Origin: an uncultured Gammaproteobacteria bacterium
GTDB taxonomy: Bacteria > Pseudomonadota > Gammaproteobacteria > PS1 > Pseudothioglobaceae
Assembly: GCA_913020715.1 (NCBI GenBank)
Contig: CAJVZH010000011.1
Coordinates: forward strand, 1 to 57,949
Reading direction: 5' to 3'
Length of the DNA stretch: 57,949 nt
How positions within the stretch are numbered: position 1 is the first letter of the stretch; the number at the start of each line of letters is the position of its first letter. Below are positions 40,376 to 51,376 of this stretch, piece after piece. A program made the position numbers and the translations under genes. The notes beneath the pieces were generated by a model, which saw nothing but the letters and a program-made list of their open reading frames with translations, was not told where the DNA came from and did no database searches.

Positions 40376-41515
40376 ATGAAAATTGTTATTGCACCCGATT
40401 CCTTCAAAGGTAGTCTATCCGCCAAGGAGGCAGCGGCATCGATAGCTCAAGGTTTTATTGATGTTTTACCCGAAGTTGAAATTGTGCAGCTACCCATTGC
40501 TGATGGTGGTGAAGGTACAACCGAAACATTGGTCGCAGCCACATCGGGCAAACTCAACTCGACAACGGTTGCTGGCCCATTGGGTGATATAGTAAATGCC
40601 CAATGGGGGCTTCTTGGAAATCTAGAAACGGGCGTTGTCGAAGTGGCATCCGCTTGCGGTTTGGACATGCTTGAGCCAAAGGAGAGAAATCCAATGTTGA
40701 CAAGCAGTTACGGTTTGGGAGAGTTAATCCTTGCTGGACTCAACCAAGGCGTTCGTCATTTTATTGTTGGTTTGGGTGGCAGTGCTTGCAATGATGGTGG
40801 TGCTGGCATGCTTCAAGCGCTGGGAATTCGCTTGTTAGACGAGGCGGGTGAAGAGCTTGCAAGAGGGGGCGGCAGCCTTCATTCACTCAACAATATAGAT
40901 ATCAGCACGCTGGATTTCCGATTAAAAGATGTGCGCTTTGAGGTGGCTTGTGATGTGGATAATCCACTACTTGGTGAGCTGGGTGCATCGGCTGTTTTCG
41001 GGCCGCAGAAGGGCGCTGATGCTCAAATGGTTGCTGAGCTTGATGCCAATCTTGAGCACTATGCAAAGATTATTCGTAAAACAACTGGCAAAGACATTGC
41101 ATTAACTGCTGGTGCGGGCGCTGCAGGAGGTTTGGGCGCGGCTTTTCTTGCTTTTTTCAACGCAGAATTGAAAAGTGGTATCGATATTGTCCTTGATGCA
41201 CTCAATCTAGAGAAACATCTTGAGAATGCTGATTTGCTTATAACTGGCGAGGGGCGTATTGATTCTCAGAGTTTGCACGGAAAGGCGCCTATTGGTATTT
41301 CCAAGAGGGCCAAGTGTTATCAATGCCCTGTTATTGTTATTGCCGGATCGGTTGAGGGTGATGTGAAGTTAATCCAAGAGCAAGGAATTGATGCTGTTTA
41401 CGTTGTTGTCTCGGGAAAACTTTCACTTGCTGGGGCCCTGGCAGAGCCATCAAAAAACCTCACACTTGTATCGCGCCAGGTTGCTAAGAGCTGGCTGCAA
41501 AAGCTAAATAGTTAG
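40376..41515 (+). CDS. Glycerate kinase (GarK/GlxK family)
   Basis: A 379-residue type II glycerate 2-kinase. It opens KIVIAPDSFKGSLSAKEAA, has ADGGEGTTE and GLGGSACNDGGAGMLQALG (read in part), and ITGEGRIDSQ. Makes 2-phosphoglycerate from glycerate with ATP. It converges on the GarR-like reductase, the stops sharing bases (41512-41515), and the two enzymes are consecutive steps from tartronate semialdehyde. Confidence 0.93.
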   Translation: MKIVIAPDSFKGSLSAKEAAASIAQGFIDVLPEVEIVQLPIADGGEGTTETLVAATSGKLNSTTVAGPLGDIVNAQWGLLGNLETGVVEVASACGLDMLEPKERNPMLTSSYGLGELILAGLNQGVRHFIVGLGGSACNDGGAGMLQALGIRLLDEAGEELARGGGSLHSLNNIDISTLDFRLKDVRFEVACDVDNPLLGELGASAVFGPQKGADAQMVAELDANLEHYAKIIRKTTGKDIALTAGAGAAGGLGAAFLAFFNAELKSGIDIVLDALNLEKHLENADLLITGEGRIDSQSLHGKAPIGISKRAKCYQCPVIVIAGSVEGDVKLIQEQGIDAVYVVVSGKLSLAGALAEPSKNLTLVSRQVAKSWLQKLNS

Positions 41516-42396
41516 CAAAGTTTTTGGTTGCTGAGATGCTCAATGGCTTGCACCAAAGCCGAGTGGTCACTATCTGCTAGTTCTAGCGATTCACAAACGT
41601 TCATCATTTGCTGGCAATTGGCGGTATTGGGCAACGCAACATTGAGCGCTTTGGCGCCGGATAACGCTAAACCCAAATCTTTTTGATGAAGTTTGATGCG
41701 AAAACCGGGATCAAAAGTTCGCTTAATCATTCGCTCACCATGTACTTCTAATATTTTCGACGAGGCAAATCCACCCATTAGCGCTTCACGCACCTTGGCA
41801 GGGTCTGCGCCGGCACTCTTGGCAAAAACCAATGCTTCGGATACCGCTTGAATATTAAGCGCAACAATGATTTGGTTAGCTACTTTGCAAGTTTGGCCAT
41901 CACCAGACCCACCAACAAGTGTGATATTCTTTCCCATCAATTCAAATAGCGGTTTAACTTTCTCAAAAACTGCTTCTTTGCCACCGCACATAATGGTGAG
42001 CGAGGCATTTTTAGCACCGACCTCTCCACCAGAAACGGGCGCATCAACATACTCGCAGCCAAGCGCTTCGATTTGCTTGGCAAAAGCTTTTGTTTCGATT
42101 GGTGATATCGAGCTCATGTCGATAACAATCTTTCCCTTAGATAGGCCTTCGGCGATGCCATCTGAGCCAAATAGAACTGTCTCCACTTGTGGCGTATCAG
42201 GCAACATAGTTATAATAATATCTGCTTCTGCTGCAGCCTGAGATAAACTGGCAACCGCCTTAATGCCTTTGGCTTCGATCTTGGCGGGTAATGGGCTGTT
42301 ATGAGTTTTGGTGATAATTTGATAACCCGCATCAGCAAGATGTGTCGCCATAGGCCCACCCATGGTGCCGAGCCCGATAAAAGCAATTGTTTTCAT
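41512..42396 (-). CDS. garR: 2-hydroxy-3-oxopropionate (tartronate semialdehyde) reductase-like
   Basis: A 294-residue beta-hydroxyacid dehydrogenase. GLGTMGGPM (8-16) binds NAD(P)H, DAPVSGG (118-124) binds substrate, and catalytic Lys171 sits in CKVANQ. It could equally be a 3-hydroxyisobutyrate dehydrogenase; glycerate kinase next door favours the tartronate semialdehyde assignment. It lies 18 bases after the 2-hydroxyacid dehydrogenase gene and is probably transcribed with it and the Rieske oxygenase from the divergent promoter. Confidence 0.83.
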   Translation of the reverse strand: MKTIAFIGLGTMGGPMATHLADAGYQIITKTHNSPLPAKIEAKGIKAVASLSQAAAEADIIITMLPDTPQVETVLFGSDGIAEGLSKGKIVIDMSSISPIETKAFAKQIEALGCEYVDAPVSGGEVGAKNASLTIMCGGKEAVFEKVKPLFELMGKNITLVGGSGDGQTCKVANQIIVALNIQAVSEALVFAKSAGADPAKVREALMGGFASSKILEVHGERMIKRTFDPGFRIKLHQKDLGLALSGAKALNVALPNTANCQQMMNVCESLELADSDHSALVQAIEHLSNQKLC

Positions 42397-42413: not shown

Positions 42414-43436
42414 CTAATAGCCTAAATTCGGCCTGACTAGGTTATTAAGGGTTTCACCAGCAAGATAGCGCTGTATATTTATAAAGACCAAGTCGAGTGT
42501 CAGTGGGATATAACTATCACCATCATCAGCTGAAATATGTGGCATCACCAGCAAATTAGGCGCCGCCCAAAGAGGTGAGTCTGCTGGCAAAGGCTCAGGG
42601 TCAAATACGTCGATAATTGCGCCGCCAATGTGGCCAGAATGAAGATTGTCTTGCAAAGCATCGTAATCCATCGTTGCAGCTCTGCCAACATTGATAATGC
42701 CAACACCAGGTTTCATTAGTGCTTGGCGTTCTCGATTTAACAGATTATTGGTTTCAACAGTGTTTGGTGTTGACATAAAAATGTAGTCAGCTTTAGGTAG
42801 TACATCGTCAAGGTGTTCAGTAGTGACCATTTCGTCAACACCTTCCAATACCTTACCATGGCGACTAACACCAATCACATGCATTCCCACCATCTTGCAA
42901 TGCTTGGCTGCAGAGTGGCCGATATTACCGGTGCCAATCACAAGCAAGGTTTTGCCTGCAATCGGTGTCGAATATAACGATTCCCAGTGATTGTTGCGTT
43001 GATTGGCAATCACCTGGGGTATGTGAGTGTGTAGCATTAGAATACTCATTAGGCCAAATTCGCCCGCCTTAGCGGCATGTGCACCTCGGTTATTAACAAC
43101 TGTTACATTTTCTGGCACCCAGTTCATTGGGCATAGGTGTTCAACGCCTGCACCAATAATGTGAATCCAGCGAAGGTTTGGTGCAATCTCTGTCAAGTTT
43201 TCGGTTGGAAAGTCCCAACAAACAAGCACTTCTGCTGTTTTCATTGATTCGTAGAAGTTGTCAAGATCCCAGTCAAATACTGGATCAATTTTTCCTTTTA
43301 AATTAGGATGCCCCTCTAAGGCATCGTTGTAGCGCTCTTCGGTTAGAGCAAAGACAGCCTCGCCCTCAATTGTTGGTGGAAATGAGTCAGGGTTGGCATG
43401 GTTACTTTTAAAGTGAACTCGAATTTTTTGATCCAT
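42414..43436 (-). CDS. D-2-hydroxyacid dehydrogenase family protein
   Basis: A 340-residue NAD(P)-dependent dehydrogenase. GTGNIG (168-173) nucleotide loop and the catalytic set Arg252 (NVGRAATMD), Glu281 (FDPEPLP) and His300 (MPHISADD). The glyoxylate/hydroxypyruvate reductase-like subgroup fits, but the first 60 residues are unusual (NHANPDSFPPTIEG). It lies 16 bases after the Rieske oxygenase gene. Substrate could be a 2-keto acid produced by the pathway. Confidence 0.82.
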   Translation of the reverse strand: MDQKIRVHFKSNHANPDSFPPTIEGEAVFALTEERYNDALEGHPNLKGKIDPVFDWDLDNFYESMKTAEVLVCWDFPTENLTEIAPNLRWIHIIGAGVEHLCPMNWVPENVTVVNNRGAHAAKAGEFGLMSILMLHTHIPQVIANQRNNHWESLYSTPIAGKTLLVIGTGNIGHSAAKHCKMVGMHVIGVSRHGKVLEGVDEMVTTEHLDDVLPKADYIFMSTPNTVETNNLLNRERQALMKPGVGIINVGRAATMDYDALQDNLHSGHIGGAIIDVFDPEPLPADSPLWAAPNLLVMPHISADDGDSYIPLTLDLVFINIQRYLAGETLNNLVRPNLGY

Positions 43437-43452
43437 GGGATTCTCTATTAAA

Positions 43453-44820
43453 TTATTTTGAGGAGTTGTAGTGTGATTGCATTTCTTTTAATTTATCAGT
43501 GACGATATTAATTCTTTCATTTTCCGATATACCATCAACTGCGAACTGAATTTCGACAAATTCATGGGCAATCTTGCTCAACAATGATAATTCATCATCT
43601 TCAGTTTTGCGTGGAATATTAAGAACGGTGTCACCACCGTAGGTAGGAATTGACGCAGTGTCAGTTGAACTAACATGCATTAGCTCATTTCCAGCCTTAA
43701 GGGCGCGGATTTGTGCGCGGATTTGTCGGCGCATCAGGGCAACGCCGATATCGCTAGTTGTTAAATTCTCATTACTGTGAATAGTAATAGGACCCATACC
43801 TTCACAGGCTTCAACGTCAGCCGGGAACTTTTGCTTTTGTTCGTATGGTCGATCAAAAACCTCACCTTGTTCAATTAGTTCCGGCCCTTCAGGGGTGTTG
43901 TACTCTTGAGGGTCGCCTCGTTCACCAAAGTTTGCCCAGGCGTAACATATAGTGGTTTCGTCATCGATAGGCACTACCCAGCGGGTAAATGAACTGCGAC
44001 CATAAAAGATCTCCTTGGTGCCATCAGCTGCGAATGCAGATCCCGCTTGGGTAAAGTTTGGCAGGATGACTTCGTTAATTCTAAGCCATACATTGTCGCC
44101 AACACGACGGGTATTGCAGCCAAGAATCCAAGAGTCACGCTCAAAAAAGTCCATTTGACCCACTTCTCCAAATCCCTCGGAAAACTGCACACGACTTACG
44201 TTGGAATGCAAGAAGGCGGTGTGAAGCGGATCAACAATGGCATCGAGAACTTGTAGCCAATTACAATTAAAAGGTGCTTTGTATGGAACCATTTCCATAT
44301 CTTTAAAATTAAAGCTGTCGTAAACAGGAAATTCTGGAATTGATTCTATCGGCCCCATGTAGGCAAATATAAGTCCTTTAAATTCATGCGTTGGGTATGC
44401 GCCAAGTCGAACTCGCTCTTTAATCATATTGATCGCTTTCTCTGGTTGGCCCGGCACTTCTAGAATGCGTCCATCGGCAGCAAAATGCCAGCCGTGGTAG
44501 CAGCACTGTATACCGCTCTCAGTACACATCCCAAATTCAAGGGATGCTTGCCTGTGAGGGCAGTGTTTATGAACAAGACCGATCTTCCCATTTTTGGTTC
44601 TGAAAATTACCAGCTCTTCACCAAGTATTTTTATTGCAACTGGTTGCTCACCTAAATCTTGCGTTAGAAAAACCGGATGCCAATAACGTCGTAGATACTC
44701 GCCCGCCGGGGTTGTTGGGCCGACACGGGTTATTTCGTCATCAGTCTCATTGGTAAGCGCTAAACCATGACCAGCAAAATTTTTAAAGTTTGTTTTAATT
44801 TCTTCTACTGTATTTCCCAT
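43453..44820 (-). CDS. Rieske oxygenase, phthalate/vanillate-demethylase type
   Basis: A 455-residue oxygenase component. Rieske motif: Cys87-x-His89 (CPHRQASLEF) and Cys106-x2-His109 (QCCYHGWHF). Mononuclear iron motif: Asp197-x2-His200-x4-His205 in VDPLHTAFLH. The pattern fits the one-component-oligomer group (phthalate dioxygenase, vanillate O-demethylase), which needs a separate FMN/ferredoxin reductase; none is in the window. AGGAGG precedes the ATG. It heads the minus-strand arm of the divergent cluster. Confidence 0.88.
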   Translation of the reverse strand: MGNTVEEIKTNFKNFAGHGLALTNETDDEITRVGPTTPAGEYLRRYWHPVFLTQDLGEQPVAIKILGEELVIFRTKNGKIGLVHKHCPHRQASLEFGMCTESGIQCCYHGWHFAADGRILEVPGQPEKAINMIKERVRLGAYPTHEFKGLIFAYMGPIESIPEFPVYDSFNFKDMEMVPYKAPFNCNWLQVLDAIVDPLHTAFLHSNVSRVQFSEGFGEVGQMDFFERDSWILGCNTRRVGDNVWLRINEVILPNFTQAGSAFAADGTKEIFYGRSSFTRWVVPIDDETTICYAWANFGERGDPQEYNTPEGPELIEQGEVFDRPYEQKQKFPADVEACEGMGPITIHSNENLTTSDIGVALMRRQIRAQIRALKAGNELMHVSSTDTASIPTYGGDTVLNIPRKTEDDELSLLSKIAHEFVEIQFAVDGISENERINIVTDKLKEMQSHYNSSK

Positions 44821-44893
44821 TGGTGGCGCCTCCTAATACCCATATTGTATATTCTCTTAAATAATACAGAAATTTATTGCATATTAATTAATT

Positions 44894-44952
44894 ATTATGT
44901 AAAAAGATGTGTATATTGACAAAATTAAGTAGTTAAGTTACATTTAATGTAA
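44894..44952. promoter_or_regulatory. Divergent promoters with overlapping -35 boxes and palindromic operator candidate
   Basis: Plus strand: TTGACA (44916-44921), 17 bases, TACATT (44939-44944). Minus strand: TTGTCA (44922-44917), 17 bases, CATAAT (44899-44894). The two -35 boxes are the same near-palindrome TTGACAA read both ways. The plus -10 lies inside a perfect palindrome TTACATTTAATGTAA (44938-44952), and the minus -10 region reads TTTACATAA, a related half-site. The rest of the 184-base gap is AT-rich with no other feature seen. Coregulation of both Rieske arms is likely. Confidence 0.7.
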
Positions 44953-45004
44953 ATATATAGTTATCATGATCTGGCCAGTGTTGGCTTGCTGATCCAAGGG
45001 TATT

Positions 45005-46114
45005 GTGAGTAAAAATATGATTGACTTGTCTTCGTTCTATGAGCAAGGCTCACTTAAGAGTGGCTTGCCCGCAACAGCGTACAATGACGAGCAGTTCTTT
45101 CAAGCCGAATGCGATACACTGTTTTCAGATAATTGGGTATTTGTGGGCTTCGTTCACGAACTCGCTGAGCCTGGCGATACACAACCGGTGACAGTTGCCG
45201 GCAAACCAGTCCTTCTAATCAAGAATACGCAGGGTGATATAGGGGCGTTTCATAACGCTTGTTCGCACCGATGCTTAAAACTAGTTGATGAGCCAACAAA
45301 TGTCGGCTCAATGCTGTGCTGTCCTTATCATGCGTGGACCTACAATTTAGACGGCGATCTGTGCGCTACACCATTTTTTGGAGGTAAAGAGCACCAGCCG
45401 GAAGGTTTTGATATGTCTAAACATGGCCTTAAGTCTATTAGACTGGCTATCTGGCACGATTGGATTTTTATAAATTTAAGTGGTGATGCGCCAGAATTTG
45501 TAGAGTATGCGAAGCCATTGATTAAGCACTTGGATGGCATAAACTTTAATCAAGTTACACCAGTAGCAGCCCTAAATTTTGGCGAGGTGTCATGTAATTG
45601 GAAATTCTTAATGGAGAACTTCATCGAGCCTTATCACGTTCAATTTGTTCATCGAACCACAACCAATCAGCCCCTAGAAGATCATTATACAATTGTTGAT
45701 GACGTGTGCCTTGGAAGTGCTGTAGATTTGAATGACAGTGAGCAAGTTAAGGGTTCATTATCGGTAAGTTCTCGCTACTTAACGCTCTTTCCAAATTTTA
45801 TTATTGGACGTTACTTCCCAGATCAACTCGGGGTGTATTTAAGTGTGCCAGTGGATTCTGGACACACAGCACAGAAAAGAGTGATTTATACCACTGAAAG
45901 TCAATCATTGTCTGAACCAGAGGTGGAAGATCTAAAAAAATTATGGTGGGATGTGCACAAAGAAGATCACGCGATTTGCGAACGAATGCAACTCGGTAGA
46001 GCGTCACCAGTTGCGGCGTCGGGCGGCCTTTTATCTCCCCATTGGGAGGATAGTGTTCACGCCTTTCAAGCTATGATTGCAACAGCGGTAATACAAAAAA
46101 ACAAACAAAACTAG
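45005..46114 (+). CDS. Rieske oxygenase with Glu in the bridging position
   Basis: A 369-residue oxygenase. Rieske motif Cys86-x-His88 (CSHRCLKL) and Cys106-x2-His109 (CCPYHAWTY). The mononuclear iron motif is ENFIEPYHVQFVH: His211 and His216, with Glu208 where most family members have the bridging Asp. Acid substitutions here occur in the carnitine/choline/betaine-type monooxygenases, as I recall for CntA. The start is GTG 45005 or ATG 45017. It leads a plus-strand operon with the glyoxalase (ten bases). A quaternary or N-methylated amine substrate is the best guess. Confidence 0.85.
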   Translation: MSKNMIDLSSFYEQGSLKSGLPATAYNDEQFFQAECDTLFSDNWVFVGFVHELAEPGDTQPVTVAGKPVLLIKNTQGDIGAFHNACSHRCLKLVDEPTNVGSMLCCPYHAWTYNLDGDLCATPFFGGKEHQPEGFDMSKHGLKSIRLAIWHDWIFINLSGDAPEFVEYAKPLIKHLDGINFNQVTPVAALNFGEVSCNWKFLMENFIEPYHVQFVHRTTTNQPLEDHYTIVDDVCLGSAVDLNDSEQVKGSLSVSSRYLTLFPNFIIGRYFPDQLGVYLSVPVDSGHTAQKRVIYTTESQSLSEPEVEDLKKLWWDVHKEDHAICERMQLGRASPVAASGGLLSPHWEDSVHAFQAMIATAVIQKNKQN

Positions 46115-46124
46115 GAGGTTAACA

Positions 46125-46547
46125 ATGTCAAACGAAAATAAAAAACCAAATTATAGGTTGGCACACACCATGATTAGAGTATTGGATTTAGATAAGTCTA
46201 TCCACTTTTATTGCGATATTTTGGGGATGCGAGTACTGCGAAAAACCGATTACCCGGGTGGCCGCTATACCAATACTTTTATTGGCTATGGTCCAGAGGC
46301 GGAGTTTCCAACCTTGGAGTTAACTCACAATTGGGATCAAGAAGATCACTACGATAAGGGTAATGGCTGGGGCCATCTTTGCATTGAAACACCTGACGTT
46401 CATCAGGCCTTCAACGACTTAACTGCGCAGGGTGCAGAAGTTGTAGCAGCCCCGGCTCCGATGAGCCATGGAACAAGAATTTTAGCCTTTTTGAGGGACC
46501 CAGATGGCTATGTTGTTGAATTAAATGAAACCATTAACTTAAGTTAA
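46125..46547 (+). CDS. Glyoxalase I-like protein (GloA type)
   Basis: A 140-residue vicinal-oxygen-chelate protein. RLAHTMIRVLDLDKSIHFY, LELTHNWDQEDHYDKGNGWGHLCIE (read in part) and FLRDPDGYVVELNE supply the His/Glu/His/Glu metal set of lactoylglutathione lyase. GloA removes methylglyoxal as the glutathione hemithioacetal. Strong AGGAGG site. Inside this operon it may detoxify a reactive aldehyde product, or act on a different carbon skeleton. Confidence 0.88.
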   Translation: MSNENKKPNYRLAHTMIRVLDLDKSIHFYCDILGMRVLRKTDYPGGRYTNTFIGYGPEAEFPTLELTHNWDQEDHYDKGNGWGHLCIETPDVHQAFNDLTAQGAEVVAAPAPMSHGTRILAFLRDPDGYVVELNETINLS

Positions 46548-46560
46548 TTAGGAGAGAGCG

Positions 46561-46962
46561 ATGAGTGATAAAACACCAAAATTATATAAATTTAGTGATA
46601 TTGAGAACCGCCTTCACACGTTGGAGCCAGGCAAGTCCTATATCAAGCCTTTTGTCACTAGTAACGTTAGTGATACAATGTGTGGCGGACTTAATTTCTT
46701 GAATCAAGTGTCGGTCCCGTGGGATCTTACTTGTGATGAGATTATTTACTGTATGGAGGGTGAGTTCAGATTGACTTGTGATGGTGAGTCCTATACTTGT
46801 TCACCAGGAGATGTCCTCTACATTCCGAAAGATAACCATATCGCTTACGAGTGTGATGAAAAATGCGTGATTTTTTATGCGGCCTATCCTCATGATTGGA
46901 AGCAGCAGGCCGGTATCACTTTTGTGCCGGGCATTGATCCTGAAGATATGCCGCAGAATTAA
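46561..46962 (+). CDS. EutQ-like cupin
   Basis: A 133-residue single cupin. CDEIIYCMEGEFRLTCDGE and SPGDVLYIPKDNHIAYECDE are the two cupin motifs; motif 1 has Glu but lacks the classical His pair (GxHxH), as in EutQ, while motif 2 keeps one His. AGGAGAG ribosome site. EutQ relatives have acetate-kinase or structural roles; here it may be a small metal-dependent enzyme or a sensor. Function unknown. Confidence 0.75.
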   Translation: MSDKTPKLYKFSDIENRLHTLEPGKSYIKPFVTSNVSDTMCGGLNFLNQVSVPWDLTCDEIIYCMEGEFRLTCDGESYTCSPGDVLYIPKDNHIAYECDEKCVIFYAAYPHDWKQQAGITFVPGIDPEDMPQN

Positions 46963-46971
46963 AGTCTATAG

Positions 46972-47523
46972 ATGACCAATCAAAGCAACCCCCCAACAAC
47001 CTTGAACCACGTGTCTGAGATGAATGATGGAGATCAATTGTTGCGCATCCCGACACGAGACACCTTAGATGACAAGTTAAATCAGCAAATTATTGGCATG
47101 CTAGAGGTCGATGGTCGTCTGCCTTTCAAGGAAATTGCAAAAAAATTGGATGTTTCAGAAGGCACAGTAAGAAATCGTGTGAACCGAATGAAAGATTCTG
47201 GCGTCTTGCAAATAAAAGCCTTGGTTGACCGTTCAGCTATTAATTATGCGACGGATTCGATGCTTGGCATTAAGGTTGCACCTACTTCAAGCCCAACCGA
47301 AGTTGCTGAGCGACTTCAAAATTGCAATGAAATTGTTTTTATTATCTGGATCACAGGGCGGTTCGACCTGTTGGTGGAAATTGTCTCTGATGGAGATGAT
47401 ACTTTGTGTCGTTTTTTGGATACACATTGTTTTAATAAAGACGATATTAGTAATGTTGAAGTAATGAAGGGGCTGGCAACTTTTAAGAATCAGTTCTTAT
47501 TAAAGTCACAAGAATTACTTTAA
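46972..47523 (+). CDS. Lrp/AsnC-family regulator
   Basis: A 183-residue regulator. The winged helix-turn-helix covers about 35-80 (DDKLNQQIIGMLEVDGRLPFKEIAKKL read in part, VSEGTVRNRV), followed by the RAM ligand-binding domain. A 30-residue N-terminal extension is longer than in Lrp. It sits nine bases after the cupin and just before two ligase genes, so it probably senses the amine, an amino acid or a glutamyl intermediate and controls the divergent promoters at 44894-44952 (inference). Confidence 0.88.
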   Translation: MTNQSNPPTTLNHVSEMNDGDQLLRIPTRDTLDDKLNQQIIGMLEVDGRLPFKEIAKKLDVSEGTVRNRVNRMKDSGVLQIKALVDRSAINYATDSMLGIKVAPTSSPTEVAERLQNCNEIVFIIWITGRFDLLVEIVSDGDDTLCRFLDTHCFNKDDISNVEVMKGLATFKNQFLLKSQELL

Positions 47524-47525
47524 TT

Positions 47526-47546
47526 TTATGTAAACACAAGTAAACA
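47526..47546 (+). promoter_or_regulatory. Direct repeats GTAAACA before the first ligase gene
   Basis: GTAAACA occurs at 47530-47536 and 47540-47546, ten bases apart, on one helix face. The first copy is part of TTATGTAAA (47526-47534), the same string found at 44895 in the divergent promoter region. An AGGAG ribosome site follows. Candidate binding site for the neighbouring Lrp-type regulator; not proven. Confidence 0.35.
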
Positions 47547-47555
47547 GGAGAAAAT

Positions 47556-48974
47556 ATGACAGATATATACCCAACATCAATGGCAGATGCCCTGCCATCA
47601 AAGGCTCGCGTTAACGAGGCCAAAGAGAGACTTGAGAAGGCAGGTGTTAAATACATTTTGTCTTGTTGGATTGATTTGCTTGGGATACCAAAAACAAAGC
47701 CTGTACCAATGTGTGAGTTTGAAGCATTGTGCGCTGGCAAAGGGCCGCAATTTGCGGTTCATTCGATATCTTTCGTTCCCGAATTGGGGCCGGCCGACTC
47801 TGATCAAATTCCCCTCCCTGATTTGGATAGTCTGGTGATTTGCCCTTGGGACAAGACTTGCGCCTGGGTTTTTGCTGATTTGTGGTGGCAAGACAAGCCG
47901 TACAATCTTTGCCCGAGGCAGACACTTAAGCGTGCAGTTAAGGGAGCTGAGGATGCTGGTTATAAGGCTTTCTGTGGCATTGAGCCAGAATTTATAGCAA
48001 TGCGCTGGGAAGATGGTAAACCTGTAAAAGCCATTGATGACGACCCCTTGCCAGGCAAAGGTCTGCGTCCACGTCGTCAGGCATTTGGTTACGATGCTGA
48101 ATATAGCATTGAGTCAATGGGCTTTCTAGGTGAAATGATCGACATTCTGAACGGCCTTGGATGGGGTGTCAAAGATGTTGTTGCTGAAGGTGCTTATTCA
48201 CAATTTGAATTGGACTTTACCTACACCAATGTTCTTGAAATGGCTGACCGGCTAGTTTTTTTACGCGTCTTATTAAAAGAGATTGCAAAAAACCACGGTA
48301 TGTTTGTTACATTTATGCCAAAGCCTACAATTGGTGACTGGCGCTCTGGCGCCCATATTAACTTTAGTTTGACTGAAACAAATGGTGCTATCAATATCCT
48401 CGAAGGTAAGGATGGCGAGTTTTCAGAGGAGGCCTACTATGCGATTGGCGGCATATTAAAACACGGTCATGCGATTACAGCAGTCGCATGCTCAACGGTT
48501 AATTCTTATAATGGCTTGGTGCCTAAAGTGGGTGGATTTGAAGGGGGTACAGTCACTTGGGCGCCAACCCACATGGCTTATGGAGATAACAACCGTTCAT
48601 GCATGGTTCGTTTGCCTCAAAACCGATTTTGCATTGAGAATCGTGCTGCGGATATGTGCATGAATCCATATTTGTCACTTGCGCTAACAACGGCAGCAAC
48701 GATAGATGGTATCCAAAATAAAATTGACCCAGGAAAACCTTTGAATTTGGATTTGTACTCTTTAAGTCAAAAGGAGATCAAAGAAGCTGACATTGCTTCA
48801 CTGCCACGTAATCTTTTAGAGGCGCTGGAGGAGCTTCAGCAGAGTGACTTTGCTCGTGAAGTTTTAGGTGACTCTATGATGCAGCAATTTTTTGCTTACA
48901 AAATGGATGAATGGGATCGATACCATCAAGCGGTAACTGAGTGGGAGGTTGAAGAGTACCTCAGGCTGTACTAA
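47556..48974 (+). CDS. Glutamine-synthetase-family ligase, divergent
   Basis: A 472-residue GS-fold enzyme. Metal-site glutamates are visible at Glu143 and Glu145 (GIEPEF) and Glu211 and Glu218 (VAEGAYSQFELDF); the late NRSCMVRLPQNRFCIENRAADMCMNPYL gives the glutamate-site arginines (read in part). The usual glutamate-binding loop GNGSGxHxH is replaced by GDWRSGAHIN, losing the Asn. This suggests gamma-glutamylation of an amine, or use of a glutamate analogue, and not ammonia assimilation. Probable relatives are gamma-glutamylpolyamine and anilide synthetases. Strong AGGAG site; operon with the second ligase (48 bases). Confidence 0.82.
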   Translation: MTDIYPTSMADALPSKARVNEAKERLEKAGVKYILSCWIDLLGIPKTKPVPMCEFEALCAGKGPQFAVHSISFVPELGPADSDQIPLPDLDSLVICPWDKTCAWVFADLWWQDKPYNLCPRQTLKRAVKGAEDAGYKAFCGIEPEFIAMRWEDGKPVKAIDDDPLPGKGLRPRRQAFGYDAEYSIESMGFLGEMIDILNGLGWGVKDVVAEGAYSQFELDFTYTNVLEMADRLVFLRVLLKEIAKNHGMFVTFMPKPTIGDWRSGAHINFSLTETNGAINILEGKDGEFSEEAYYAIGGILKHGHAITAVACSTVNSYNGLVPKVGGFEGGTVTWAPTHMAYGDNNRSCMVRLPQNRFCIENRAADMCMNPYLSLALTTAATIDGIQNKIDPGKPLNLDLYSLSQKEIKEADIASLPRNLLEALEELQQSDFAREVLGDSMMQQFFAYKMDEWDRYHQAVTEWEVEEYLRLY

Positions 48975-49025
48975 AGTTTACTAGTCAGTTATTTTCTTTG
49001 AAATTTAATTATAAAGGAGTATGTG

Positions 49026-50339
49026 ATGTCGATCAATCTTTCACAAGTGGCCGCTGAACGCGGAATTGAGTATTTTTTGATTAGTTTTGTTGACTTGTTT
49101 GGTCATCTACGCTCGAAGCTTGTTCCCGCAAGAGCGATCGACGGTATGCAGAAAGATGGCGCAGGCTTTGCAGGCTTTGCGGCTTGGCTGGATATGACGC
49201 CTGCACACCCTGATATGTTTGCTATTCCCGACCCAGAAAGCCTTATTCAGTTACCATGGAAACCGGAAGTTGCTTGGTTGGCTTCTGATTTGTATATGGA
49301 CGGCAAACCTGTTGAAGCGTCACCCAGGGTGGCTTTAAAGCACCAACTTGATAAGGCGAAAGCTTTAGGCTTTCGAATGAAAACAGGTGTTGAGTGTGAG
49401 TATCATTTAATCAACGAAGATGGTTCGAATATTGCAGATAGCAAAGATCAACAAAATAAACCTTGCTATGATCAACAATCACTAATGCGACAATACCCTG
49501 TGATTAAGCAGATCTGTGACGCAATGATCGACCTGGGGTGGAGCCCCTATCAAAACGATCATGAAGATGCCAACGGTCAATTTGAAATGAACTGGGATTT
49601 TGATGACGCATTGAAAACGGCAGATCGTCATGTTTTTTTTAAGTTTATGGTAAAGTCTATTGCCGAAATACACGGTATGAGGGCAACATTCATGCCCAAA
49701 CCATTTAGCCACCTAACCGGCAATGGTTGTCATGCTCATATTTCAGTATGGGATTTATCAGGCAAGGAAAACCTATTTAGTGGCGATGATGGTAAGTACG
49801 GCTTGGGGTTGTCCTCTCTCGCTTACCAGTTCTTGGGCGGCATTATGCAAAGTGCCGACCAACTTACAGCAATTTTTAATCCAACTGTAAACAGTTTCAA
49901 GAGAATTAATGCCCCCCGCACACTTTCAGGCGCCACTTGGTCGCCTGACTCTATAACTTATGGCGGTAATAACAGGACCCATATGATTCGGATACCCGAT
50001 GCTGGTAGGTTTGAGTTACGTCTTATGGATGGGGCTGCTAACCCATATTTGATGCAGGCTGGAATATTGGCTTGCGGTCTTGAGGGCGTTGCTGCTAATA
50101 GGGATCCTGGTGCACCTCTAGATATTAACATGTACGAACAAACTGAAAAGTTGGAGGGTTATAAACGACTACCAAACAACTTATTGGACGCGCTGAGACT
50201 ACTTGATTCAAGTCAGACACTTAGAGAGTGTTTGGGCGATGATTTAATCAATGCTTATGTTAAATTAAAGAAAAAAAATTGGGATGATTACACTTACCAC
50301 TTATCGCAATGGGAGCGTGATAACACCTTAGATTGCTAA
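49026..50339 (+). CDS. Type III glutamine synthetase-like ligase (GlnT/TIGR03105 type)
   Basis: A 437-residue GS-fold enzyme. Start is ATG 49026, six bases after AAGGAG; a GTG three bases earlier is possible. Metal residues Glu124 and Glu126 (GVECEYHLI), Glu181 and Glu188 (HEDANGQFEMNW), and the glutamate loop LTGNGCHAHISVWD are complete; Asp24 (SFVDLFG) matches the ammonium-site aspartate. It resembles the alpha-proteobacterial GlnT group, which includes gamma-glutamylmethylamide synthetase (GmaS). No N-methylglutamate synthase or dehydrogenase genes are here, so methylamine use by that route is not shown. Confidence 0.85.
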   Translation: MSINLSQVAAERGIEYFLISFVDLFGHLRSKLVPARAIDGMQKDGAGFAGFAAWLDMTPAHPDMFAIPDPESLIQLPWKPEVAWLASDLYMDGKPVEASPRVALKHQLDKAKALGFRMKTGVECEYHLINEDGSNIADSKDQQNKPCYDQQSLMRQYPVIKQICDAMIDLGWSPYQNDHEDANGQFEMNWDFDDALKTADRHVFFKFMVKSIAEIHGMRATFMPKPFSHLTGNGCHAHISVWDLSGKENLFSGDDGKYGLGLSSLAYQFLGGIMQSADQLTAIFNPTVNSFKRINAPRTLSGATWSPDSITYGGNNRTHMIRIPDAGRFELRLMDGAANPYLMQAGILACGLEGVAANRDPGAPLDINMYEQTEKLEGYKRLPNNLLDALRLLDSSQTLRECLGDDLINAYVKLKKKNWDDYTYHLSQWERDNTLDC

Positions 50340-50365
50340 AGAGTGGTCGATAAAACGTATTTGGT

Positions 50366-51376
50366 ATGCTGGATTTTGAAACGTACAAATTAGAAAATGT
50401 GACATTGCTTTCGGGCGAAATACTTCTCGATGCGCATTTAGCTTTCAAAACTTATGGAAAACTAAACAGCAACAAAGATAACGCTGTGATTTTGCCAACT
50501 TTTTATACCGGTTCTCATCAAAGGAATGAAGGATTTTTTGGCGAAGGAAGGGCGATCGACCCAAACAAGCATTTTGTTATATCAGTAAATTTATTTGGCA
50601 ATGGCTTGTCGTCTTCGCCGAGCAATACTCCGGCACCGCAAGATGGTTCTCGCTTTCCTAAAATAAGTCTTTGGGACAATGTCGCTTGTCAGTATCGATT
50701 ATTAACCGAACATCTAGAGGTTGAGAGTATAGCGCTTGTTACTGGGTGGTCTATGGCTGGATGCCAAGCCTATCAGTGGGCGGCGCAATATCCAGATTTT
50801 GTCAATGCCATTTTGCCATTTTGTGCATCTGCAAAAACCTCGATCCATAACTATGTGTTTTTAGAGGGTGTGAAAGCCGCACTGTGCGCAGACTCACACT
50901 GGAATAATGGTAACTACCAAACACAACCGATTGTTGGCCTTAAAGCTTTTGCAAGAGTATATGCGGGCTGGGCGTTTTCGCAAACATTTTATCGAGACGA
51001 GTTGTTTAAAGAGATCGGTTATGAGTCAGCTGAAGCATTACTTCTTGATTGGGAGAAAGACCATGCTGATAACTGGGACGCCAACAATTTGTTGGCAAAG
51101 TTAGACACTTGGCAAGCAGGCGACATAAGTGTTGGGCCACTGTATAGCGGTGATTATCATCAAGCGCTCGGATCCATTAAAGCAAAGACAATTATCATGC
51201 CTTGCACTCAGGATTTGTACTTTCCGCCGGCAGACAATCAAATTGAAGCTGAACTCATACCGAATGCGGAGCTTAGGGTCTATAACTCCCCTTGGGGACA
51301 TTGTGCCGCTAACCCGGGAAATGATTCTGGCTTCACAGCCGCACTTGAGAGATCAATCAGGGACTTGCTTGTTTAA
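50366..51376 (+). CDS. Alpha/beta hydrolase, homoserine O-acetyltransferase-like
   Basis: A 336-residue hydrolase-fold protein. Nucleophile Ser129 in GWSMAG, Asp283 (PCTQDLYFPP) and His312 (WGHCAANPG) form the triad. The N-terminal half (HLAFKTYGKLNSNKDNAVILPTFYTG, read in part) matches the MetX family, but the helical lid differs and Met biosynthesis genes are absent nearby. In this operon it may hydrolyse an amide or ester, for instance a glutamyl intermediate (inference). It starts 26 bases after the second ligase gene. Confidence 0.8.
   Translation: MLDFETYKLENVTLLSGEILLDAHLAFKTYGKLNSNKDNAVILPTFYTGSHQRNEGFFGEGRAIDPNKHFVISVNLFGNGLSSSPSNTPAPQDGSRFPKISLWDNVACQYRLLTEHLEVESIALVTGWSMAGCQAYQWAAQYPDFVNAILPFCASAKTSIHNYVFLEGVKAALCADSHWNNGNYQTQPIVGLKAFARVYAGWAFSQTFYRDELFKEIGYESAEALLLDWEKDHADNWDANNLLAKLDTWQAGDISVGPLYSGDYHQALGSIKAKTIIMPCTQDLYFPPADNQIEAELIPNAELRVYNSPWGHCAANPGNDSGFTAALERSIRDLLV

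Follow-up and report, generated by a model that had tools for sequence, protein, structure and literature searches.

The window, by which we mean the whole stretch of 57,949 nucleotides analysed here, is contig C11 (CAJVZH010000011.1) of a 1.55 Mb assembly (GCA_913020715.1, 94.7% complete) of an uncultured bacterium whose genome falls in the SUP05/Thioglobus group. Relatives carrying a protein at least 78% identical to the ligase P0007 listed below have record titles naming 'Candidatus Thioglobus', the SUP05 cluster, Thiotrichales or a gammaproteobacterium. Towards its right-hand end lies a divergent gene cluster with two Rieske oxygenases (RieskeA and RieskeB) and two ligases of the glutamine synthetase (GS) fold, and we asked which of these genes belong together and what they might do. 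The nine genes named in the original prediction (P0001 to P0009) are intact open reading frames (ORFs) at the positions given there, and their families agree with the ORF translations and with the NCBIfam and Pfam profile matches on which we base all family assignments in the window. The cluster comprises the following features.

41512..42396, minus strand: P0010, a GarR/tartronate-semialdehyde-reductase-like beta-hydroxyacid dehydrogenase (TIGR01505, 407 bits, cut-off 341)
42414..43436, minus strand: P0001 (HADH), D-2-hydroxyacid dehydrogenase-like (PF02826)
43453..44820, minus strand: P0002 (RieskeA), a Rieske oxygenase of the phthalate-dioxygenase/LigXa type (PF00355 and PF19301, LigXa_C; best PDB match 7fhr)
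44877..44888, plus strand: AT-rich element TTGCATATTAAT of the divergent promoter region, which can be made out when 14 loci are aligned
44938..44952, no strand assigned: near-palindrome TTACATTTAATGTAA between the divergent genes, a candidate operator with half-sites recognisable in 14 loci
45005..46114, plus strand: P0003 (RieskeB), a Rieske oxygenase with a group-Va quaternary-amine signature (PF00355 and PF00848)
46125..46547, plus strand: P0004, GloA-like (glyoxalase I/VOC; TIGR00068, 132 bits, cut-off 120)
46561..46962, plus strand: P0005, a Cys-rich EutQ-like cupin (PF06249; EutQ structures 4axo and 2pyt)
46972..47523, plus strand: P0006, a regulator of the Lrp/AsnC family (PF13404/PF01037)
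47556..48974, plus strand: P0007, a GS-like ligase and the core ligase (TIGR03105, 368.6 bits, below the cut-off of 469.6)
49023..50339, plus strand: P0008, a predicted GmaS, gamma-glutamylmethylamide synthetase (GlnT-like; TIGR03105, 662.6 bits, above the cut-off; 7cql, 621 bits)
50366..51376, plus strand: P0009, a MetX-like alpha/beta hydrolase (NF005757/PRK07581, 440 bits, cut-off 332; PDB 5d6o, 5e4y)

Counting the window's own genome, 23 of the 29 genomes in its genus have an orthologue of P0007 (at least 78% identity), as does G042 from a sister genus, and orthologues of RieskeB are found in the same 23 genus genomes. The stretch matched by RieskeB contains one TAA in four genomes (G004, G005, G012 and G019); in G012 and G005, the two that were compared, this codon lies upstream of the RieskeB ORF start used. 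We read the surroundings of the P0007 orthologue at 23 loci, those of the 22 other genus genomes and of G042. RieskeB, GloA and the cupin accompany it at every one of them, the MetX-like gene at 20 (at the remaining three the contig ends before it), RieskeA at 19, and HADH and Lrp at 18 each; five loci (L038-L041 and L054) have a rearranged gene order and lack Lrp. The conserved unit is RieskeA-HADH, divergent from RieskeB-GloA-cupin-(Lrp)-GS-like-MetX-like.

The module, whole or partial, recurs well beyond the genus in SAR11, SAR324, roseobacters, Rhizobiales and other metagenome-assembled genomes (MAGs). Roseobacter carriers include Leisingera thetidis, with a plasmid locus, and Ruegeria conchae TW15. 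A scan of 84,980 species genomes gave 516 confirmed P0007 loci, of which we kept the best 80, together with three plasmid loci (L064-L066) and a fourth stretch; L067, the second stretch of one plasmid, is excluded from the group counts. Neighbouring genes were counted by six-frame search and loci grouped by record titles, and many of these loci end at contig edges, so that the gene counts are lower bounds. The 37 SAR11 loci contain RieskeB (35), GloA (35), the cupin (36), the MetX-like gene (35), RieskeA (25) and HADH (24), with Lrp in none and GmaS in one. At the 15 loci of the Thioglobus group, whose species overlap the genus set, RieskeB, GloA and the cupin are found 15 times each, RieskeA 13, HADH and the MetX-like gene 12 each, Lrp and GmaS 11 each and mgsC 7 times, and the single SAR324 locus has every gene, with Lrp at 40%. 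The 17 other alphaproteobacterial loci, which include the plasmid loci, have the MetX-like gene (15), Lrp (13), RieskeB, GloA, the cupin and HADH (6 each), RieskeA and GarR (5 each), GmaS (3) and mgsC (1). Counts are lower in 13 other gammaproteobacterial MAGs (one titled Deltaproteobacteria, one Proteobacteria), with MetX-like 9, RieskeB and Lrp 5 each, GloA 4, and the cupin, RieskeA and HADH 2 each; L092 and L121, from other lineages, have both Rieske genes, GloA, HADH, the GS-like and the MetX-like gene. Overall P0009 accompanies P0007 at 72 of 83 loci. That the genes would stay together in relatives had been an expectation of the original prediction, and the gene order across the 23 genus and sister-genus loci, SAR11, SAR324 and the other lineages bears it out. 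P0010 stands in line with HADH-RieskeA, an arrangement also seen in some roseobacters and Mesorhizobium; copies 59-61% identical to it occur at 5 of the 17 other alphaproteobacterial loci, adjoining HADH in L065, L096, L140 and L144, and no labelled copy was found at the 23 loci of the genus and G042.

By contrast, among 397 evenly drawn genomes of Pseudomonadota only the window's own matches the P0007 alignment at E <=1e-170, and in a sample of 198 SAR11-family genomes a P0007 relative is present in nine and RieskeB in 11; the centre genome of this sample, G502, had been picked as a carrier and is one of the nine, and G505 and G507 had likewise been recognised as carriers beforehand. In all nine P0007-bearing genomes one contig holds both genes, their starts lying about 2 kb apart. 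The two genomes with RieskeB and no P0007 relative are G529 and G530, the match in G530 spanning 223 of 371 positions. Pairwise identities also correlate among the core proteins, with r of 0.83-0.96 when the cupin is set aside and 0.58-0.84 for the cupin against the others, uncorrected for common descent. These patterns indicate that the genes are kept and lost together, and that their association is more than a chance neighbourhood.

To characterize the core ligase we aligned P0007 and ten orthologues in RhGmaS numbering, with the catalytic residues of GmaS taken from PMC7948447. All 11 sequences carry Ala in place of GS Asp50', a position where the GlnA of the window's genome has Asp, and Trp at GmaS Trp300, the place of the Glu flap; GlnA is gapped at that column, and the flap assignment follows the mapping in PMC7948447. 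Likewise in all 11, Val209 takes the place of GmaS Asp177, the residue given there as deprotonating methylamine, and the amine pocket has Asp207 for Gln175 and Asp220 for Asn188. The equivalents of Glu179, Glu186, Arg312 and Arg317 are retained. An ammonia GS is ruled out for P0007 by the missing Asp50' and flap Glu, and a GmaS by the invariant Val at Asp177 together with the TIGR03105 score below cut-off. Its residues place P0007 in a separate GS-fold subfamily, with the phosphate-transfer residues retained and the amine pocket altered. A GS-like protein with 40% identity to P0007 adjoins, at L062 (G085), genes that read as creatininase-like and urea-carboxylase-like.

P0008 has the equivalents of GmaS Asp177, Glu186 and Arg312 and no GS Asp50' (residues again as in PMC7948447), and a plain ammonia GS is ruled out for it by these residues. 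The prediction that the ligases are not plain ammonia-assimilating glutamine synthetases is thus upheld, as far as sequence can judge, by the active sites of both. In the genus three genes, u1, u2 and u0, which read as class-II glutamine-amidotransferase-like, GltS-C-like and FMN glutamate-synthase-like proteins, occur beside gmaS; from their sequence and the usual gene order we take them to be MgsA, MgsB and MgsC. They lie after the P0007 orthologue and before that of P0008 at 14 of 22 genus loci (in L042 the contig ends before the P0008 orthologue). Read gene by gene, the cluster of the window has no amidotransferase or ferredoxin reductase gene, as had been noted originally, but an amidotransferase-like gene, mgsA, does sit with mgsB and mgsC between both ligases at those 14 loci. 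In G016 mgsABC is on a second contig with the P0008 orthologue, and L063 has u1 only before its contig ends. The three genes are not at this place in six genus loci that were read (L038-L041, L044 and L054), nor next to gmaS in the window, where a gap of 48 bp separates P0007 from P0008. A LysR-like regulator gene (label u8) lies on the opposite strand between mgsA and the GS-like gene in L036 and L037 (G026 and G001).

The distribution of gmaS is also looser than that of the core. In G042 it and the module are on different contigs; it occurs without a P0007 orthologue in G032 and G036, and at E <=1e-120 is found in 12 of 19 module-bearing genomes (SAR11, three other alphaproteobacterial, SAR324; their completeness is not shown). 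It lies near the module in L137, L139, L142 and L145, in L142 with mgsABC beyond it, and is missing from the fetched loci of Mesorhizobium (L094 and L096) and roseobacters (L064-L066, L140, L144 and L146). We conclude from sequence and neighbourhood that P0008 is a GmaS, most readily seen as a passenger of the N-methylglutamate pathway (GmaS, MgsABC, Mgd) lodged in the module. P0008 has all the catalytic residues of GmaS, and mgsABC stands beside it in relatives; unlike that pathway, the window lacks mgsABC, and RieskeA, RieskeB, GloA, the cupin, P0007, the MetX-like protein and HADH are no part of it. The two ligases had been proposed to act as a pair in a single pathway, and we reject this because P0008 belongs with mgsABC in relatives, as it does at most same-genus loci; only P0007 is core. 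A neighbourhood of the type 'GS-like plus gmaS' can therefore be two pathways and is better split before functions are assigned.

Canonical mgsC, at least 94% identical to that of G006, is present in 16 of 29 genus genomes; it was not found in the window's genome (G000, 94.7% complete), where a paralogue of 51% identity, at G000:C12:592-1887, is all that matches. Retention of GmaS without mgsABC may rest on such paralogous mgs-like genes. A second cluster, L156 (G000:C12:1-12000) and L157 (G006:C1:1100001-1116000), combines genes that read as mgsABC-like with one for a protein of 766 aa and others for a betaine-type ABC transporter; in L157 GS-like and methionine-synthase-like genes are nearby, and in G000 such a GS gene lies near the end of contig C15. 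This cluster may relate to the glycine betaine system described in PMC12478193.

RieskeB has a bridging Glu208 in 60/60 homologues, and position 206 is Phe in 54 and Tyr in 6 of them (Phe206 in the window); in a profile alignment these positions correspond to Glu205 and Tyr203 of CntA, the carnitine monooxygenase, which is also the best solved relative (6y8j, 141.8 bits, nearly full length). In PMC7948474 Tyr or Phe at CntA 203 marks group Va and Asn group Vb, group Va includes CntA, the choline enzymes and OxyBAC, acting on carnitine, choline and benzalkonium, group Vb of Stc2 and GbcA/BmoA, and the role of the bridging Glu in group V is demonstrated. By the bridging Glu, the aromatic residue and the profile match, RieskeB bears the marks of a group-Va, quaternary-amine enzyme. 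It differs from group V in lacking a Cys-X-X-Cys pair and a nearby reductase gene, and in scoring well under the NCBIfam GbcA cut-off (138 vs 670 bits). RieskeA has Asp197 as bridging residue and Ile195 in 45/45 homologues, and so lacks the group-V Glu and aromatic marks; its Fe-S ligands, His200 and His205 are likewise found in 45/45. No reductase gene is linked to the cluster in the window. The genome elsewhere matches PF00175 at three places, and two of these are plausible electron donors: C1:195672, which encodes 404 aa and reads as GbcB-like with a 2Fe-2S end, and C8:69220, which encodes 345 aa. A Rieske domain is matched six times in the genome, and in four cases the frame is as long as expected for an oxygenase. 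A sarcosine-oxidase-beta-like ORF adjoins C1:195672.

The GloA-like protein has the metal ligands His14, Glu65, His84 and Glu132 in 58/58 homologues and passes the TIGR00068 cut-off, and thus carries the marks of a glyoxalase I; HADH has Arg252, Glu281 and His300 in 44/44, and P0009 the triad Ser129-Asp283-His312 in 70/70. P0009 falls below the NCBIfam MetX cut-off (154.6 vs 500 bits) and by that test is not the homoserine O-acetyltransferase MetX; its nearest PDB entries are 5e4y and 5d6o (215 and 219.6 bits), the MetX-like esterases MekB/Hle, on which the literature search found no paper. Compared with three SAR11 copies (L103, L104 and L124), the EutQ-like cupin of the window shows 87-89% identity, against 67% for P0007, 63-65% for GloA and 56-60% for RieskeB, so that among these four it is under the strongest constraint. 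Because its 4-fold sites are saturated (25-34% identical to these copies, 37-41 sites each), we attribute this identity to strong constraint, and recent transfer is ruled out as its cause. Identity drops to 57-67% for the copies of roseobacters, SAR324 and others. Of the seven Cys, four occur in 57/57 copies, and no HxH metal motif was seen by eye. P0005 resembles EutQ in matching PF06249 and EutQ structures, but it is a short single cupin that scores 54 bits against a cut-off of 193, has seven Cys, and has no ethanolamine gene among its identified neighbours.

From these data we propose, with about even confidence, that the cluster is a horizontally shared, mobile module that breaks down a quaternary or N-methylated amine by oxidation, in which a ligase of a new subfamily carries out gamma-glutamylation and gmaS is lodged. 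We favour a quaternary or N-methylated amine as substrate because of the RieskeB signature and the betaine-type transporter genes: v1 and v3, which read as ProV-like and ProW-like, occur by their ORF BLAST labels at 13 and 10 of the 37 SAR11 loci and at 8 and 6 of the 17 other alphaproteobacterial loci. RieskeB would oxidise the carbon next to the quaternary nitrogen, whereupon the C-N bond would split to give an amine and an aldehyde-type fragment; P0007 would attach glutamate to the amine at the expense of ATP; GloA, the MetX-like protein, HADH and, in the window, GarR would process the carbon fragment, yielding a 2-hydroxy or 2-oxo acid; and RieskeA might carry out a second oxygenation or act on a second substrate. 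Methylamine, if released, would pass to GmaS, and electrons would come from a reductase encoded elsewhere in the genome. We hold the roles of GloA, the cupin, the MetX-like protein, HADH and RieskeA, the amine used by the ligase and the order of steps with low confidence. The amine-catabolism role as first predicted is thus favoured, by the RieskeB signature and the recurring transporters, although its pairing of the two ligases did not stand.

Several observations weigh against this proposal. At four loci of gammaproteobacterial MAGs (L091, L095, L097 and L098) the P0007 relative is the one core gene to be seen. RieskeB is not obligatory: in a search of 13 genomes and two plasmid records it is linked to the GS-like gene in L121, L146, L064 and L092, it was not found in the plasmid record of L065, and ten GS-like-bearing genomes have no linked copy. 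Three of those ten have a strong RieskeB on another contig (G493 with GloA and the cupin, G500 with GloA, and G498), four have no match and three only weaker matches of at most 271 bits. The passenger GmaS correlates with the core as closely as the core proteins do with one another (0.81-0.99, 14 sequences, common descent uncorrected). Because the v1 label also catches some other ABC ATPases its count runs high, and at other loci TauABC-like transporters take the place of these genes. RieskeB lacks Cys-X-X-Cys near the iron site, with Pro209 and Val212 in 60/60 homologues; according to PMC10952381 that pair is found only in some group-V enzymes and is not universal. The statistics of the candidate operator are weak as well: TTACATTTAATGTAA is matched nowhere else in the window on either strand, with 0.35 matches expected at up to two mismatches and two reached in 7 of 100 shuffles. 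They are better for TTGCATATTAAT, which has one match in the window against 0.04 expected, 4 of 100 shuffles reaching one. That Lrp (P0006) regulates the genes through the near-palindrome is a guess. Because of the linked and unlinked patterns of RieskeB across the genomes searched, the module looks like three sub-units, RieskeB-GloA-cupin, RieskeA-HADH(-GarR) and GS-like-MetX-like.

The order of oxygenation and glutamylation bears on a competing explanation. Degradation of aniline and 1-naphthylamine combines gamma-glutamylation by a GS-like enzyme with a Rieske dioxygenase. By that precedent, and in the order that the original prediction gave, P0007 might act first, glutamylating a small secondary or primary amine such as dimethylamine, after which a Rieske enzyme would oxidise or demethylate the gamma-glutamyl amide and the product, gamma-glutamylmethylamide in the case of dimethylamine, would enter the MgsABC route. 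The gmaS-mgsABC neighbours of the module in the window's genus and in the alphaproteobacterium L142 fit such a scheme. So does the absence of dmmDABC from all SAR11 representatives examined in PMC5520151, and the scheme, if true, would answer the missing dimethylamine step of SAR11. However, the RieskeB signature is of the quaternary-amine type, gmaS is not in the fetched Mesorhizobium or roseobacter loci, HADH, GloA and the MetX-like protein would be left without a role, and nine P0007 carriers among 198 SAR11-family genomes are too few for a clade-wide gap. We consider glutamylation first unlikely as a whole; oxygenation before glutamylation is at least as likely as the reverse, because a quaternary amine cannot be glutamylated before dealkylation. 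It is similarly doubtful that P0007 has a wholly new function, glutamylating an amine used by no known GS-like enzyme and feeding a hitherto undescribed route for a common marine quaternary amine in members of SAR11, SUP05 and the roseobacters, possibly including that same dimethylamine step. Aniline itself, offered originally as an analogue, is a poor one: a GS-like ligase and Rieske oxygenases share one cluster in both cases, but the window has no amidotransferase, linked reductase or Rieske beta subunit, and RieskeB has amine-type marks with carnitine monooxygenase as its best solved relative.

P0007 might instead not be a catabolic amine ligase at all, but activate a carboxylate or conjugate another nucleophile in the breakdown of a non-amine, for instance an aromatic acid via RieskeA, HADH and the hydrolase, with the betaine and methylamine genes merely sharing genomic islands. 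The phthalate/LigXa-like RieskeA with its bridging Asp, an amine pocket differing from GmaS at three positions, and the variable SAR11 flanks with several other catabolic-looking sets are consistent with this. All GS-fold enzymes known to us, however, ligate a nitrogen nucleophile to glutamate, and the quaternary-amine marks of RieskeB and the recurrence of betaine-type transporters in separate lineages also argue the other way; we think this explanation improbable. Least probable of all is a worn N-methylglutamate cluster, gmaS without mgsABC, beside unrelated oxidative genes with no joint function. The position of gmaS apart from the module in G042, its presence without a P0007 orthologue in G032 and G036, and the absence of mgsABC at this place in the window and six other genus loci would suit it, and it accounts for gmaS, but not for the joint occurrence of RieskeB, GloA, the cupin, P0007 and the MetX-like gene in distant bacteria, nor for the co-occurrence of P0007 and RieskeB in nine of nine genomes of the SAR11 sample. 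For the core genes it is already largely refuted.

A mobile route for quaternary or N-methylated amines would be of wider interest, as quaternary and methylated amines contribute importantly to the dissolved organic nitrogen of the sea and SAR11 and SUP05 relatives are among the carriers. The module would provide markers by which a hidden flux could be followed, and six to eight enzymes for study, among them a new ligase subfamily, an uncharacterised oxygenase with quaternary-amine marks and a constrained cupin. A full-text literature search, with subscription journals mostly outside its coverage, found no earlier description of the gene set, in line with the original remark that no described pathway has exactly these genes, and no paper combining SAR11, Rieske and glutamine synthetase. 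The one paper found to join Thioglobus and Rieske, PMC12478193, concerns a different system.

Among the other neighbours in SAR11, carnitine-dehydrogenase-like (v7), BKACE-like (v14) and LLM-monooxygenase-like (v4) genes, so called by reading, vary among loci and are not counted as parts of the module. In the flanks of 84 loci, ureohydrolase (agmatinase/arginase) genes of several subfamilies are absent from the genus loci and present at 15 others (L065, L066, L099, L100, L103, L109-L111, L115, L117, L130, L135, L137, L145 and L147), and L064 has one more gene of this family, annotated as agmatinase. Such neighbours are suggestive at most of guanidine compounds as substrate.

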